In this document: piece by piece, positions 4,471 to 40,921 of the stretch
Position numbering within the stretch: the first letter of the stretch is position 1
Layout: the number at the start of each line of letters is the position of its first letter
Origin: a bacterium
GTDB lineage: Bacteria; Vulcanimicrobiota; Xenobia; Xenobiales; JADMJV01
Direction of reading: 5' to 3'
Assembly (NCBI GenBank): GCA_030149525.1
Contig: JASBRJ010000299.1
Span: forward strand, 1-52,881
Length of the DNA stretch: 52,881 nucleotides
Program-made: the position numbers and the translations under genes
The notes under the pieces: model-generated
The model's database searches: none
Seen by the model: the letters and a program-made list of their open reading frames with translations, nothing else
Told to the model about the DNA's origin: nothing

Positions 4471-4502
4471 GCTTTCCCCGTTTAAGACGTTTTTTCGACA
4501 GC

Positions 4503-4531
4503 AAGACCGCTCTGCCCTGAGCGGTCTTTTT
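4503..4531 (+). terminator. Intrinsic terminator after the 54-residue membrane protein
   Basis: Perfect 10-bp stem AAGACCGCTC / GAGCGGTCTT with loop TGCCCT, followed by TTT. It lies 32 bp after the small ORF and 20 bp before the methylmalonyl-CoA epimerase start. Confidence 0.8.
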
Positions 4532-4551
4532 ACAAAGGAGCGGCACAATCC

Positions 4552-4959
4552 ATGATTGATGGAATCGATCACATCGCCATCGCGGTCAACAGCTTGGAGG
4601 AGTCCCTGGCCTTCTACCAGGAAGCGCTGGGACTGAGCCTTGAGGGCATTGAGGAAGTGAAGGGGCAGAAGGTGAGAGTCGCCCTGCTCAAAGTCGGACA
4701 GACCCGCATCGAACTTTTGGAGCCAACCTCGGAGGATAGCCCTATCTCCAGTTTCCTGGCCAAGCGAGGCCCGGGTCTGCATCACATCGCTCTGGCCACC
4801 ACTCAACTTCAAAGTCGTCTGGATAAACTTGATTCCGAGGGCGTGAAGCTTATCGACCGGGTGGCAAAGATTGGGGCTGAGGGGAAGCAGATCGCTTTCG
4901 TTCACCCCAAGGCCAGCGGCGGAGTTTTGATGGAATTGTGTGCGGAGGCTGCAGAATGA
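4552..4959 (+). CDS. mce: Methylmalonyl-CoA epimerase
   Basis: Predicted to interconvert (2S)- and (2R)-methylmalonyl-CoA in propionyl-CoA metabolism. The 135-residue length is typical. It is a vicinal-oxygen-chelate protein: IDHIAIAVNSLEESLAFYQ at the N-terminus carries the first metal histidine, GPGLHHIALATTQL the second histidine region, RIELLEPTSEDSPISSFL the family loop, and ASGGVLMELCAE the C-terminal metal glutamate. AAAGGAG about ten bases upstream supports the ATG. Its stop overlaps the start of the mutase-like gene downstream (ATGA), so the two are translationally coupled. It begins just after a terminator, so its promoter must lie close to 4530 or transcription reads through. Confidence 0.92.
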   Translation: MIDGIDHIAIAVNSLEESLAFYQEALGLSLEGIEEVKGQKVRVALLKVGQTRIELLEPTSEDSPISSFLAKRGPGLHHIALATTQLQSRLDKLDSEGVKLIDRVAKIGAEGKQIAFVHPKASGGVLMELCAEAAE

Positions 4960-5573
4960 GCTTGAGGAGCGACTGGGAGAATCTGGCCGGGGCCGACGAG
5001 CTGGTCAAAGACGGCTATCCTATTTTGGGAGAGGAGCAGGCCGTCGGTGGAGAGAGCCTCTCTCAAAGGACTTGGAAAGTCAGAGTTGTTTTACGTGAAT
5101 CGCTCGACGAGGAGCGCCTCACCGCCCTCTCTGAAGGAGTCGCTCAAGTGCTGGTGGCGCCGTCCTCGGGAGGAACGGAATCTTTGAAGAGTTGTCTTCG
5201 GGTGCGAAAAGAGGGGAGTGAGGCACGAATCGAGGCCGATCTTCAGATGCTTCGCAACATGGCCGAGATTCAGAGGCTGCAAACGGCTCATCCCGAGGTT
5301 GCGACTTGGGTGCTGGTGACCAACGGTTCCCCGGAGAACGACCCGGAAACTCTGGTGGGAGAGACCTTAAAGCAATTGACCGGCGTTCTGGCGGGCTGTC
5401 AGGTGATCGAAATTGTTCAGGCCCCTGGAGAGAGCTTTTCTTCCTTGTGGCATCGAATCAATGTTTCTCGTCTCCTGTCTCACGAGTCCGAACTCGGAGA
5501 CTTCCCCGATCCTCTTGCCGGTGCGGGGCTCTTCTCAGCTCTGGCTTCACAAGACGTCTCCAGCCCTGTATGA
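4956..5573 (+). CDS. Reduced methylmalonyl-CoA-mutase-like protein (small-subunit-like)
   Basis: A 205-residue cytoplasmic protein starting at the ATG that overlaps the epimerase stop (ATGA), with CGGAGG upstream. The N-terminus (SDWENLAGADELVKDGYPIL) and C-terminal half read like pieces of the mutase small subunit: ADLQMLRNMAEIQRLQ corresponds to the barrel helix before the conserved W.ATS segment, DPETLVGETLKQLTGVLAGC to the DP.NN..R.T..A..A.LGG helix, and SLWHRINVSRLLSHESELGD followed by DPLAGAG to the R..R N.QL.L.EES.L DPAGGS region. Most of the (beta/alpha)8 barrel and all of a B12-binding domain are absent, so catalysis is unlikely. Homology is my reading of motif order, supported by the neighbouring epimerase; it could instead be an unrelated hypothetical protein. 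Confidence 0.55.
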   Translation: MSLRSDWENLAGADELVKDGYPILGEEQAVGGESLSQRTWKVRVVLRESLDEERLTALSEGVAQVLVAPSSGGTESLKSCLRVRKEGSEARIEADLQMLRNMAEIQRLQTAHPEVATWVLVTNGSPENDPETLVGETLKQLTGVLAGCQVIEIVQAPGESFSSLWHRINVSRLLSHESELGDFPDPLAGAGLFSALASQDVSSPV

Positions 5574-5583
5574 TGGGCTGGTA

Positions 5584-5955
5584 ATGCCAAAGACAAAAAA
5601 GTACGACCGCCAAAAAGTCACACGATTTGCTCTCTGGGGAGGGCTCCTACTGGGGCTGTCCGGATTTATGGCCGGAAGTTTCGTCTGTTTGTACTATCAA
5701 CTACCGATCCCGCCGCTCTTTATCACCGAATTAGGATTGATTGTGGGGGGATGTTTGGGAGCCCTCGTGGCTCTCACCAACTCGGAAAAGCGAGTTCTAC
5801 CGACTGTGGGTTCGATAGCCTTGTCGGTCCCGCTCTGCCTGGGTAGCGGACTAGGCGTTGCGCCGTCGCTTGTCTTTGTTTTGGGGTTGGCGGCGGGAGC
5901 CTGGGCTTTGGCAGAGACGTCCAAGAGTGAGGGCGAAGTCTGGAAAAACGTCTAG
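5584..5955 (+). CDS. Four-helix membrane protein of unknown function
   Basis: 123 residues from the ATG at 5584, ten bases after the mutase-like gene. A basic N-terminus (PKTKKYDRQKVTRF) precedes four hydrophobic segments, including LWGGLLLGLSGFMAGSFVCL and LGLIVGGCLGALVAL, and an acidic tail. This suggests a small inner-membrane protein with its N-terminus inside. The frame is open upstream to 5413, but that part overlaps the previous gene and has no good ribosome-binding site. I do not recognise the family. Position and spacing suggest it is the last gene of the epimerase operon. Confidence 0.6.
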   Translation: MPKTKKYDRQKVTRFALWGGLLLGLSGFMAGSFVCLYYQLPIPPLFITELGLIVGGCLGALVALTNSEKRVLPTVGSIALSVPLCLGSGLGVAPSLVFVLGLAAGAWALAETSKSEGEVWKNV

Positions 5956-35121: not shown

Positions 35122-36450
35122 CTATGTGACGGAGCACTGTTGTTCCATCACTTTCCGTCGCACGAAGCCTTCTCCCAAATAGGCCAGCACCACCGCTCTC
35201 AAGGCAACAAAAGCGAAGTAGCCCATCCACAGTCTTTCCGGGGATCGGGAGGCGATGGACCAAAGGGCAAAGGGGAGAAATCCCAGCAACGTGCCGGTTA
35301 GAACGGAGGTACGCATATCAGTTCCCCGCGTCAGACCGATGCAGAGGCCGTCATAGAGATAGGCGTAGCTGCCGGCCACGAGTGCTGCCAGAAAATAGGG
35401 TAAAAGGTGGAAGGCCAACTCATTAATGTTCTGATGCGCTGTCATCCGGGCCAGGAGCGATTTGGCAAAAAGAGTAAATCCGGCAGCAAAGAGCAACGTT
35501 GTGATTGTGGTGGTGCCCAACGCCACCCTCAATTGAGTTGTGACCTCACCCCATCTTTGGGCACCTGCAGCCTTGCCGGCAAGAGACTCCAGGGCGTAAG
35601 CGTAGCCGTCCACAAAGTAGGCGCAAAACAGAAGCAGTTGGAGCAGAACCGCGTTGGCGGCCACAACCTCTTCTCCCAGCCAGGCGCTTATGTTGGTAAA
35701 GCTTGTGACTGTGAGGATGAGGAAAAAACTTCTCACAAAGATCTGTCCGTTCAAGCTCATGAGGCTCGCCAATTTTTCCGGATTAGCCAGGCTTGGCCAG
35801 GAGAACCGAGGGAGTCGACCCCACGACTTCCAAACCAGGAAGAGGCCGAAGAGAAAACTGAGAATATCGGAGGCCGCGGTGGCGTATCCTGCTCCCTGGG
35901 CTCCCCAGCCCAATCTCCAAATGAAGAGATAGTCCAGAGCAACGATGAGAAAGTTCTGCACAACAGAAAGTAACAGGACATGGCGGCTGAGAAGTCGGCC
36001 CAATAGCCAACCGTTAATAGCCATCAAGCCTAGAACGGCCGGTGCTCCAAGGACTCTGGCTCGAAAATAGAGGGCCCCCTGAGCTTCCACCTCAGGCGAC
36101 CCCTGAAGGAGTTGAAAGCTCACCCACTCAATGACCGGGCGACAAAGAAGGATGAGAAGTCCCAATCCCACCCCCAGAAGGAAACTCCGAAAAAACAGAG
36201 CCGAAGTTTCCTCCTCCTCGTCTGCACCCACGGAGTTAGAAGTGAGTCCTGTGGTGCTCATTCGTAAAAAGGCGAAGCCCCAGTAGAGAAAGCTGAAGAT
36301 GGCTCCGGCAAGCGCCACACCGGAAAGGGGATCGGCTGTCTCTTGGTGGCCGAGCAAGACCGTGTCTACCAGTCCCGCCAGTGGAACGGTGAGGTTACTC
36401 AGGACGTTGGGGACGGCGAGGTGCAGATGCTGACGCAGCGCCCGCTTCAA
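35122..36450 (-). CDS. MATE-family multidrug/metabolite efflux protein (DinF-like)
   Basis: A 442-residue integral membrane protein with about 12 helices and the two-fold MATE pattern: LAVPNVLSNLTVPLAGLVDTVLLGH at the N-terminus and LAGAIFSFLYWGFAFLRMSTTGLT in helix 2-3, followed in the second half by NISAWLGEEVVAANAVLLQL. The sequence is closest to DinF-like MATEs by eye. MATE proteins export organic cations or metabolites using Na+ or H+ gradients. The TTG start (36448-36450) overlaps the TGA of the HMG-CoA lyase gene, so it is the last gene of the leucine-catabolism operon. Confidence 0.88.
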   Translation of the reverse strand: MKRALRQHLHLAVPNVLSNLTVPLAGLVDTVLLGHQETADPLSGVALAGAIFSFLYWGFAFLRMSTTGLTSNSVGADEEEETSALFFRSFLLGVGLGLLILLCRPVIEWVSFQLLQGSPEVEAQGALYFRARVLGAPAVLGLMAINGWLLGRLLSRHVLLLSVVQNFLIVALDYLFIWRLGWGAQGAGYATAASDILSFLFGLFLVWKSWGRLPRFSWPSLANPEKLASLMSLNGQIFVRSFFLILTVTSFTNISAWLGEEVVAANAVLLQLLLFCAYFVDGYAYALESLAGKAAGAQRWGEVTTQLRVALGTTTITTLLFAAGFTLFAKSLLARMTAHQNINELAFHLLPYFLAALVAGSYAYLYDGLCIGLTRGTDMRTSVLTGTLLGFLPFALWSIASRSPERLWMGYFAFVALRAVVLAYLGEGFVRRKVMEQQCSVT

Positions 36451-37352
36451 GATGTAGCGACTTTGCTCCGGTGGATCGCCATGAGATGGCTGGAGGCTTT
36501 TCTGCCAAGGCCTTGCTCAAGGTAATGAGCGGCTTTGAGAACACTTTCCCGCTCGATGCCATGTTCCCAACCGCCCCGGTCGAGCATGTAGAGGAGGTCT
36601 TCGGTGGCAAGATTTCCGGTTGCTCCCGGTGCGTAGGGGCAGCCCCCGGCTCCTCCCACGGAACTGTCAAAAGCTCGAATGCCTCTGGCTAATCCCCTGG
36701 TCACATTGGCGAGTGCGGTCCCGTAGGTGTCGTGGAGATGGAGAGCCAGTTGGTCCGGCGAGACACCTTCCAACTCATTCATGAGGTTATCGATATCCTC
36801 AGGGACAGCGGCCCCGATGGTGTCGCCAAGGCTCACCTGGTCGCATCCCATAGCCAGCAGCCTTTTGGTCAGGTGGGCGGCTGTGGCTGGTTGAATGTTA
36901 CCTTCGAAGGGACAAACGAAGACGGTGGAGAGGTATCCGCGAACGGAAAGGCCTAACTCGAGAGCTCTCTCGACCACAGCCCCGGTTTGTTCCAACGATT
37001 CTTCGATACTTCGGTTGGTGTTCTTTTGAGAGAACGATTCACTGGCGGCGATGAAGACAGCGACTCGTTTCGCCCCTGCGGCGACCGCCCTCTCCAGACC
37101 TTTGCTATTGGGAACCAGCACCGTTCTTCGGCCTGACTGTGGAAGTGATTGAAGTCGCTCCAGGAGGTCTGCAGCGTCGGCCAGTTGGGGTACCCACTTG
37201 GGATGGACCATGGAGGTGACCTCCACCTCGGGAAAACCGCAGGACTCAAGCCGTTGAATGAGACCAAGTTTAAAATCTGTGGAGAGCGGATTTTTCTCGT
37301 TCTGCAAACCGTCTCTCGGTCCGACTTCGATAACCTGGACTGCCCGACTCAA
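36447..37352 (-). CDS. mvaB: Hydroxymethylglutaryl-CoA lyase
   Basis: A 301-residue TIM-barrel enzyme that splits HMG-CoA to acetoacetate and acetyl-CoA, the last step of leucine breakdown. EVGPRDGLQNE carries the metal Asp and catalytic Arg, LHLHDTYGTALAN the metal histidines, and the signature SSVGGAGGCPYAPGATGNLA the flexible loop with its cysteine. TTG at 37350-37352 overlaps the stop of the biotin-carrier gene (TTGA), and the downstream MATE gene begins with the same arrangement. Neighbours mccB, biotin carboxylase and biotin carrier make the leucine assignment firm. Confidence 0.93.
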   Translation of the reverse strand: MSRAVQVIEVGPRDGLQNEKNPLSTDFKLGLIQRLESCGFPEVEVTSMVHPKWVPQLADAADLLERLQSLPQSGRRTVLVPNSKGLERAVAAGAKRVAVFIAASESFSQKNTNRSIEESLEQTGAVVERALELGLSVRGYLSTVFVCPFEGNIQPATAAHLTKRLLAMGCDQVSLGDTIGAAVPEDIDNLMNELEGVSPDQLALHLHDTYGTALANVTRGLARGIRAFDSSVGGAGGCPYAPGATGNLATEDLLYMLDRGGWEHGIERESVLKAAHYLEQGLGRKASSHLMAIHRSKVATS

Positions 37353-37834
37353 GCTTTCGTCTCCTCGATCTCCAGCAGCAGCGCTCCCTGCGAAACCATT
37401 TGACCGGGTTCCACGGCAACGGTTTTGACAACGCCTGCCACAGTGGCGTCCAGAGCCAGTTCCATCTTCATCGATTCCATGAGAACGAGATTTTGACCCA
37501 CTTCCACCTGGTCACCCTGGGCAACCGCTACCTGCAGAATTTTGCCCGGCATTTGGGCCTTCACGGTGCCGCCGCCCGCTCCGGCAGAGCCTCCGGCGGC
37601 GTTCCTTCGACGGGGGTCGTCCAGTTCGAATTCATGAATGGTTCCGTTGAGCCAAACCTGCGCTTTGCCGCCTTCTCGGTGAATCCAGAAAGGAACCCGC
37701 TTGCCGTTGAGTTCCACGAACTGCGGAGTGCAGCGGAAAGACTTTTCTCCCACAAAGAGAGTGTTCTCTGAGGCGTGATAAACCGCTTCGATCTCTCTGG
37801 TTTCGCCGTCCTCAATATGTCTGAACTTCGCCAT
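37349..37834 (-). CDS. Biotin carrier protein of methylcrotonyl-CoA carboxylase (separate subunit)
   Basis: A 161-residue protein whose C-terminal half is a biotinyl domain with the biotin lysine Lys123 in LMESMKMEL and the preceding VKAQMPGKILQVAVAQGDQV. The first ~75 residues (FRHIEDGETREIEAVYH ... AQVWLNGTIHEFEL) are a beta domain like that linking biotin carboxylase to the biotin domain in fused MCC alpha subunits; an Ala/Gly linker separates them. ATG at 37834 is chosen over TTG at 37849 because GGAG lies nine bases before it and it overlaps the biotin-carboxylase stop (TGATG). Confidence 0.88.
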   Translation of the reverse strand: MAKFRHIEDGETREIEAVYHASENTLFVGEKSFRCTPQFVELNGKRVPFWIHREGGKAQVWLNGTIHEFELDDPRRRNAAGGSAGAGGGTVKAQMPGKILQVAVAQGDQVEVGQNLVLMESMKMELALDATVAGVVKTVAVEPGQMVSQGALLLEIEETKA

Positions 37835-39300
37835 CAGTTGTGTCTCCAATTGCCCAGAGTTTGCCAGGGGCTTGTGGGGGAAGTGGTGGTCTCGCTCAAC
37901 ACTCTGGGGGCGTTGGAGCGTCCGAAGACACCGGCAAGAGCCGCCGCCAACTCCCGCTCGTCCGGGTCGACACGCGGTTCAAAATGTTCCGGATTTCGCT
38001 CCAGGAACTGAGTATCGAAATCGGCTTCGATAAACGTCTGATGGGAGAGAATCCGAATCAAATAGGGAATGTTCGTGGTCACGCCTAGCACGGCAAAGTC
38101 TTTCAGCCCGGCCAACAAGTTCAGCCGTGCTTCTTCACGGGTTCGACCGTAGGAGATGAGCTTGGCCAACATAGGGTCGAAGTGAATCGACACTTCGTCA
38201 CCTTGCTTGAACCCGGTATCCAGTCGAAGATTATGGCCGCTGGGCGGGTGAAAAGTGTGGAGAGTTCCCACCGAGGGTAGGAAGTTGTTGTCCGGGTCTT
38301 CGGCGTAGATGCGAGCCTCTATGGACCATCCCCGAGGGTTCAGGTAGGACTCGGGGAGCTCTAGCGGCTCCCCCTGGGCCACCGCGATTTGCAGAGCAAC
38401 TAGATCGACTCCGTAGACGAGTTCGGTGACCGGGTGCTCCACCTGAAGTCGGGTGTTGACTTCCAGGAAATAGAACTCTCCCTGTTGATCCAGAATGAAC
38501 TCCACCGTACCGGCTCCGCAGTATCTCAGAGCTTTCACGGCGTTGACGCCGGCCTCCACAAGCCTTGCCCTTAGCTCGGGTGTTACGACCTTGCTGGGAG
38601 CTTCTTCCACAATTTTCTGGTAGCGCCGTTGGAGCGAGCACTCACGTTCGCCGAAGCAGACCGCGTTACCGTGTTTATCGCCGAATATTTGAACTTCGAT
38701 GTGGCGCGGGTTCTCGATGAAGCGTTCCAGAAAGATCCGGTCGTCGCCGAACGCCTTGAGTGCCTCACCTTGAGCGCGTTCTACAGCCTCGGCAAGCTTT
38801 TCGGGTTGGCGAACCAGACGCATCCCTTTTCCACCGCCCCCGGCGGCAGCTTTCACCAGTAAGGGAAATCCAACTCTCTCGGCTCCTTCAGCGACTTTGT
38901 CGGGATCACCGCTCCAGCTAGGAACCATGGGAAGTCCGGCATCGGCCATGAACTCCTTGGCCACCAATTTGTCTCCCATTTTGGAAATGGCCTGGGGATC
39001 CGGTCCGATGAATTCCAGGCCCGCAGCCGCGCACTGTTGGCAGAAGGTGGCGTTTTCCGACAGAAAGCCGTAGCCTGGATGCAGCGCTTGGGCACCGTTT
39101 TCAAGAGCCAATTTGATAAGAGCTTCACCGTCGAGGTAACTCTCCACAGGAACCGCCAGATCGACGGTTTGGACATGGAGACTGTCGGCATCAGGAGGGG
39201 TGAAGGGAGCTATGGACCGGATACCCAGACTGCGCAGGGTGGAAGCGATGCGACACGCGATCTCTCCTCGGTTAGCTATGAAAATAGTATCAAACTTCAT
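37834..39300 (-). CDS. Biotin carboxylase subunit of methylcrotonyl-CoA carboxylase
   Basis: A 488-residue ATP-grasp enzyme that carboxylates biotin using bicarbonate and ATP. Seen in order: IANRGEIACRIASTLRSLG, ALHPGYGFLSENATF, the glycine-rich ATP lid KAAAGGGGKGMRLV, GERECSLQRRYQKIVEEAPS, and EFYFLEVNTRLQVEHPVTEL with the catalytic Glu/Asn/Arg. The C-terminal domain (LDTGFKQGDEVSIHFDPMLAK) is complete, but no biotin domain follows; that is encoded by the next gene. ATG at 39300 is supported by AAGGTG; it lies 10 bp after mccB. Context assigns it to methylcrotonyl-CoA rather than acetyl- or propionyl-CoA. Confidence 0.92.
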   Translation of the reverse strand: MKFDTIFIANRGEIACRIASTLRSLGIRSIAPFTPPDADSLHVQTVDLAVPVESYLDGEALIKLALENGAQALHPGYGFLSENATFCQQCAAAGLEFIGPDPQAISKMGDKLVAKEFMADAGLPMVPSWSGDPDKVAEGAERVGFPLLVKAAAGGGGKGMRLVRQPEKLAEAVERAQGEALKAFGDDRIFLERFIENPRHIEVQIFGDKHGNAVCFGERECSLQRRYQKIVEEAPSKVVTPELRARLVEAGVNAVKALRYCGAGTVEFILDQQGEFYFLEVNTRLQVEHPVTELVYGVDLVALQIAVAQGEPLELPESYLNPRGWSIEARIYAEDPDNNFLPSVGTLHTFHPPSGHNLRLDTGFKQGDEVSIHFDPMLAKLISYGRTREEARLNLLAGLKDFAVLGVTTNIPYLIRILSHQTFIEADFDTQFLERNPEHFEPRVDPDERELAAALAGVFGRSNAPRVLSETTTSPTSPWQTLGNWRHN

Positions 39301-39310
39301 CTCAGTCACC

Positions 39311-40921
39311 TTACATCCTGAAGACGCCGAATTTGGGCGCTTCAAAGGGAGCGTTCAAAGTGGAGGAGAGAGCCAAACCTAGAACCTGGCGGGACTGAGC
39401 CGGGTCGATCACACCGTCGTCCCACAGGCGAGCCGTGCTGTAGTAAGGGCTTCCCTCGGTTTCATATTTGTCGATGATGGGGGAGGTGATGGCGGAGCGC
39501 TCCTCCTCGCTGAGAGGGGGGTCTCCGGCCCGTTTTCTCTTGTCCTCCTCCACCGTGACAAGAACGCCTGCCGCCTGCTCACCGCCCATCACCGAAATCC
39601 GGCTATTGGGCCATGTGAAGAGGAAGCGCGGCGAATAGGCGCGGCCGCACATTCCATAGTTTCCGGCCCCGAAGGAGCCTCCTACAATGAGGGTGATTTT
39701 TGGAACGTTAGCGTTGGCCACGGCCATCACCATTTTGGCTCCGTGCTTGGCGATGCCCTCGGACTCATACTGGCGTCCCACCATAAATCCGGTGATGTTC
39801 TGCAAGAAGAGCAGCGGAGTTCCCCTTTGGCAGCAGAGTTCGATAAAGTGGGCCGCTTTCATGGCCGACTCGGAGAAGAGCACGCCGTTATTGGCGATGA
39901 TACCCACCGGCATTCCGTAGAGATGAGCAAACCCTGTGACCAGAGTCGTGCCGTAATTGGCCTTGAATTCTTGAAACTCGGAGCCGTCCACCAGTCGTGC
40001 AATGACTTCGCGAATGTCGTAAGGCTTACGAGTGTCTTTGGGGATGATTCCGTACAGTTCGTCCTGAGAATAGAGCGGATCAACCGGGGTCTTGAGCGCC
40101 ATCGGTTGGCGGAAGGTTCGATTCAGATTGGCCACGATGTCGCGGCAGATGAGGAGAGCTTCTCTATCGTCTTGAGCATAGTGGTCGGCCACCCCGGATT
40201 CTCGGGTGTGAACCTCGGCACCACCAAGCTCTTCGGCACTCACCTCTTCCCCGGTAGCCGCTTTCACCAGCGGTGGGCCGCCCAAGAAGATAGTGCCCTG
40301 TTGTTTCACGATGACGGTTTCATCGGACATGGCGGGCACGTAGGCCCCACCGGCCGTACACGAACCCATCACACAGGCGATTTGCGGAATCCCCTGGGCC
40401 GACATCTGGGCCTGATTGTAGAAGATTCTGCCGAAGTGATCGCGATCGGGAAAGACGTCGGCTTGGAGGGGCAGGAAGGCTCCACCGGAGTCTACCAAAT
40501 AAAGACAAGGGAGACGATTCTCTTGCGCGATCTCTTGAGCTCTTAAGTGCTTCTTGACCGTCATGGGGAAGTAGGTTCCACCCTTGACCGTGGCATCGTT
40601 GGCCACGATCATGCACTCGGTACCGGAGATGGTTCCGATACCCGTGACCATGCCCGCTCCGGGGCAGGCCCCCTTGTACATGTCGTGAGCCGCCAACTCC
40701 GACAGCTCCAGGAAGGGAGTGTCTTCGTCGGTGACCAGGTCAATGCGGTCGCGCACCAGGAGTTTCCCGCGGTCGGTGTGCTTTTTTCGAGATCTTTCAC
40801 TTCCCCCGAGGGCGGCTTGTGACTTTCGCTCTTTCAGTGTGTGAACCAGGCTCTCCATGCACTGGCGATTTTCAGCAAACTCGGTGCTCCCGGTTTGAAC
40901 AGTTGTGCCCAGAATTGGCAT
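39311..40921 (-). CDS. mccB: Methylcrotonyl-CoA carboxylase carboxyltransferase (beta) subunit
   Basis: A 536-residue carboxyltransferase, the usual MCC-beta length. It transfers CO2 from biotin to 3-methylcrotonyl-CoA. Family features include [95 protein letters not shown] and [19 protein letters not shown]. These match MCC rather than propionyl-CoA carboxylase beta. The ATG is preceded by GGAG nine bases upstream. It is the first gene of the operon mccB - biotin carboxylase - biotin carrier - mvaB - MATE. No isovaleryl-CoA dehydrogenase or methylglutaconyl-CoA hydratase is linked. Confidence 0.95.

Follow-up and report, generated by a model that had tools for sequence, protein, structure and literature searches.

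The reason why bacterial methylmalonyl-CoA mutases retain a dead small subunit is, to our knowledge, not well understood. Heterodimers that pair an active with an inactive chain are common among these enzymes (PMC9974510), and the dimer interface of human MMUT is made by the substrate barrels (PMC10356863). Homodimeric mutases such as human MMUT show that the enzyme can do without a separate small subunit, as may the MutB described here; they differ from the present case in that the small subunit gene is wholly absent. The reference system for the inactive chain is the MutA small subunit (TIGR00642), represented by Propionibacterium shermanii PDB 1REQ/1E1C chain B (637 aa) and by 6OXC chain B (616 aa). 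Within the order to which the genome studied here belongs, genomes of family f3 carry a MutA that is about 609 residues long from MSTLEALEL onwards and scores 260-271 bits against TIGR00642. The sister genus, which includes the Ca. Eremiobacterota isolates ACE_ERE1 and bin.189_sub, has MutA-like proteins of 503-521 residues that score 108-139 bits against PF01642. The two that were tested against TIGR00642 gave 106-109 bits with it and 133-138 bits with PF01642; the closest PDB match of such a protein is the P. shermanii mutase small (beta) chain. The N-terminal half of the barrel is already unrecognisable in these proteins, the Pfam match beginning at residue 128-131, equivalent to model position 201. 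The gene order mce-mutA-mutB-meaB, with overlapping mce and mutA, is conserved in four sister-genus genomes. Genome G006 (L033, 4655-8506) has MutA and MutB in one open frame of 1283 aa, but a genuine fusion was rejected: the reading frame seems to be broken at the junction, and a draft-genome frameshift is more likely. In the sister-genus genome G003 (L034, L035) neither MutA nor MutB was matched, the sole finds being pieces resembling a fused isobutyryl-CoA mutase; the methylmalonyl branch is possibly either absent there or left out of the assembly.

The window, by which is meant the whole stretch of 52,881 nucleotides that was analysed, comes from a single metagenome-assembled draft genome of 8.27 Mb in 398 contigs with 4.5% contamination. 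As the two sister-genus loci located in named GTDB contigs come from Candidatus Eremiobacterota MAGs, the window is placed in that phylum. The window carries at 4552-4959 on the forward strand the gene mce, which encodes a real methylmalonyl-CoA epimerase (151.8 bits against TIGR03081, above the cut-off). A hairpin with a T-run, AAGACCGCTCTGCCCTGAGCGGTCTTTTT (4502-4534, forward strand), ends some 20 bases upstream of the mce start and is a candidate intrinsic terminator, albeit one absent from the list produced by the terminator scan. The ATG of the following gene, here called mini-mutA (4956-5573, forward strand), shares the tetranucleotide ATGA with the mce stop and opens a frame of 205 uninterrupted codons, exactly as an earlier sequence-only reading had described; in the sister genus mutA starts within a few codons of this position. 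Codon preference in the gene's own frame is coding-like over nearly the entire ORF and zero in codons 161-200. At 5584-5955 on the same strand, where the sister genus has mutB, there is instead a gene for a small hydrophobic protein of 123 aa with no Pfam match and only putative membership of the operon.

Direct searches with mini-MutA came back empty: Pfam yields zero matches even at E 10, neither mutase barrel nor B12-binding domain, and there is no match in NCBIfam (TIGR00642 included) or among PDB sequences. A match to the Pfam family MM_CoA_mutase had been set beforehand as a test of the earlier reading, which on this point failed, and the homology is visible only by way of the sister-genus intermediates. 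With phmmer, mini-MutA matched the sister-genus ORFs of 503-521 aa at E 7e-6 to 4e-4 in 4/5 genomes, the identity over residues ~128-199 being 37-39%. A comparison with hhalign against MutA gave E 6.8e-7 over residues 132-199, and a MutA profile built from eight MutA sequences gave 28.6 bits, the maximum reached by 1000 shuffles being 6.0. Codons 128-199 (5337-5552, forward strand) are the sole part with significant MutA homology; by alignment they represent alpha6-beta7-alpha7 and the start of beta8 of the substrate barrel, and the protein ends six residues beyond them. Codons 1-127 (4956-5336, forward strand) are coding-like and predicted to form beta/alpha structure, but the alignment of residues 1-131 to the arm of MutA or to the first half of its barrel was no better than that of shuffles (p = 0.15-0.25), the one weak exception being the first seven residues, MSLRSDW, which resemble the sister-genus MSMWSEF (p about 0.008 in a single post-hoc test). 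Of the motifs originally quoted as mutase-like, DPETL..LTGVLAG, RINVSRLLSHESEL and DPLAGAG fall within or at the edge of the homologous part, whereas MLRNMAEIQRL (residues 98-108) is situated beyond that part and lacks statistical support.

Mini-MutA lacks a complete (beta/alpha)8 substrate barrel, having 205 residues and, in a model of low confidence, no more than four beta-alpha units; the degenerate C-terminal B12-type domain is missing, and the protein is too short for the catalytic MutB architecture of barrel plus B12-binding domain. The model in question, obtained with AlphaFold2 for residues 36-205 using 19 rows, is weak and guided by mutase rows, and shows four beta-alpha units and the last helix (pLDDT 56, pTM 0.52); a full-length model built on five rows was discarded (pLDDT 39). 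Foldseek/VIA-align comparison of the 36-205 model found generic TIM barrels only (Z 5-6, best 6.2), and the absence of methylmalonyl-CoA mutase from the fold matches listed says little. The remaining mutase pieces were sought in all frames of the window and none was found beyond residues ~128-199, so that a frameshifted full-length gene is ruled out and the contention that most of the barrel and the B12 domain are missing is upheld. In comparison with MutA proper (about 620 aa), therefore, mini-MutA shares the orthologous slot and the homologous alpha6-beta7-alpha7-DPLAG stretch, and B12 chemistry is expected of neither, but the greater part of the barrel and all of the degenerate B12 domain are gone and TIGR00642 and Pfam do not detect it. 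With the sister-genus proteins it shares the slot behind mce, the overlap and the homology of residues 128-199; these differ in being Pfam-recognised, in keeping a C-terminal domain and in having genes that still lie beside mutB and meaB.

The same slot in mce-mutA-mutB-meaB together with the homology thus identifies mini-mutA, with high confidence, as an orthologue of MutA that has lost most of the barrel and the degenerate B12 domain. The proposal of an extremely reduced mutase pseudo-subunit gains support from the 128-199 homology, the orthologous position behind mce and the sister-genus intermediates of 503-521 aa; the literal Pfam test went against the sequence-only reading, and the N-terminal 127 residues show no detectable homology. 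It is very improbable that the short gene is a metagenome assembly artefact or contamination: the genome is indeed a draft in 398 contigs with some contamination, but the gene is located 5 kb into a contig of 52.9 kb, its sequence is divergent in its own right, and neither further MutA fragments in all frames of the window nor a full MutA anywhere in the genome accompany it.

In the entire genome only two mutase barrels were found, neither of them a MutA. The check for a mutase elsewhere, which had been advised, was rewarded by an intact MutB of 674 aa with its B12 domain, encoded apart from mce on contig C320. The composition of that contig matches that of the window (GC 0.553 versus 0.557; tetranucleotides r 0.955), which argues against its being a contaminant. 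The second barrel is a barrel-only chain on contig C296, of the type relying on a separate B12 subunit, and contig C135 carries a B12 protein together with a MeaB. Mini-mutA keeps the sister-genus position behind mce, including the ATGA overlap; mutB is located elsewhere.

Within the order the length of MutA is graded, from ~609 residues (f3) through 503-521, i.e. ~510 (sister genus), to 205 in the window, and the N-terminal arm of MutB before WTIRQY shortens in parallel (74, 46 and 35 residues); the order of events in this reduction series is one that we infer. Within the sister genus dN/dS is 0.10-0.27 for the reduced MutA as against 0.05-0.08 for MutB, and therefore a strongly reduced MutA is still under purifying selection there, though faster-evolving. 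Between window and sister genus the identity is about 30% for MutA, 53% for mce and 69-71% for MutB, the last to be compared with 85-95% for MutB inside the sister genus (the G006 MutB being left out). No further short MutA copies were found in 149 Eremiobacterota genomes, GTDB contigs or plasmids.

Several of these observations would suit a decaying relic, in which mutA lost its role once mutB had moved off and MutB had become self-sufficient, the ORF staying open by chance or through translation effects on mce or the downstream gene. Such a relic would explain the location of mutB apart from the operon, the faster divergence of MutA than of MutB and mce, the occurrence of a short mutA in only one of the genomes searched and the reduction of the MutB arm. 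However, the 205 codons are without a stop although the sister genus alone spans a dS of about 1.3 and diverged from the window genus still earlier, as the MutB identities indicate; in addition, codon bias is of the coding type over residues 1-160 and the start codon is retained at the mce overlap. In a neutral simulation 205 codons stayed open in 0.3% of cases at 0.5 substitutions per site and in 0.06% at 1.0, a calculation that presumes neutrality since the genus split and which a recent loss of function would escape. Decay is accordingly considered unlikely, albeit the most serious of the alternatives.

The preferred reading is that the mini-mutA product is a minimal non-catalytic partner of MutB, a role to which, judged from the sequence, about an even chance may be given. 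Mini-mutA would then be the end of the MutA reduction series in this Candidatus Eremiobacterota family. The remnant, which derives from the substrate barrel, would still be produced and would fold as part of a (beta/alpha) barrel, docking on the substrate barrel of MutB at the former site of full MutA and stabilising or capping that face, with the B12 chemistry being carried out by MutB alone. As its start is still coupled to mce, it is proposed that epimerase and helper are made together. That a functional barrel fragment of ~200 residues docks on a B12 mutase in place of a 600-residue partner, the MutB arm having shortened to match, is put forward more tentatively. Points against a partner role are the single metagenome-assembled genome, the position of mutB outside the operon, the lack of homology in residues 1-127, the weak and mutase-guided fold prediction with its generic TIM-barrel matches and the zero codon bias in the last 40 codons. 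A repurposed remnant, now serving the epimerase or another protein (e.g. as an assembly partner) and no longer MutB, might be suspected from the translational coupling to mce, the separation of mutB and the unrecognisable N-terminal 127 residues; yet in the sister genus the longer mutA genes overlap mce as well and there is no positive sign of any new partner, making this improbable, and more so than decay. The interest of mini-mutA lies chiefly in the natural graded deletion series of a dead subunit (about 609, 510 and 205 residues) that the lineage supplies beside an intact catalytic chain, which would let one test directly how much of the inactive partner, and which portion, is required by the enzyme.

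Elsewhere in the window, reading of the ORFs at 36447-40921 on the reverse strand revealed a cluster of an HMG-CoA-lyase-like ORF with biotin-carboxylase and carboxyltransferase ORFs, of which the carboxyltransferase was confirmed by PF01039; the cluster is likely to encode a methylcrotonyl-CoA carboxylase of leucine degradation.
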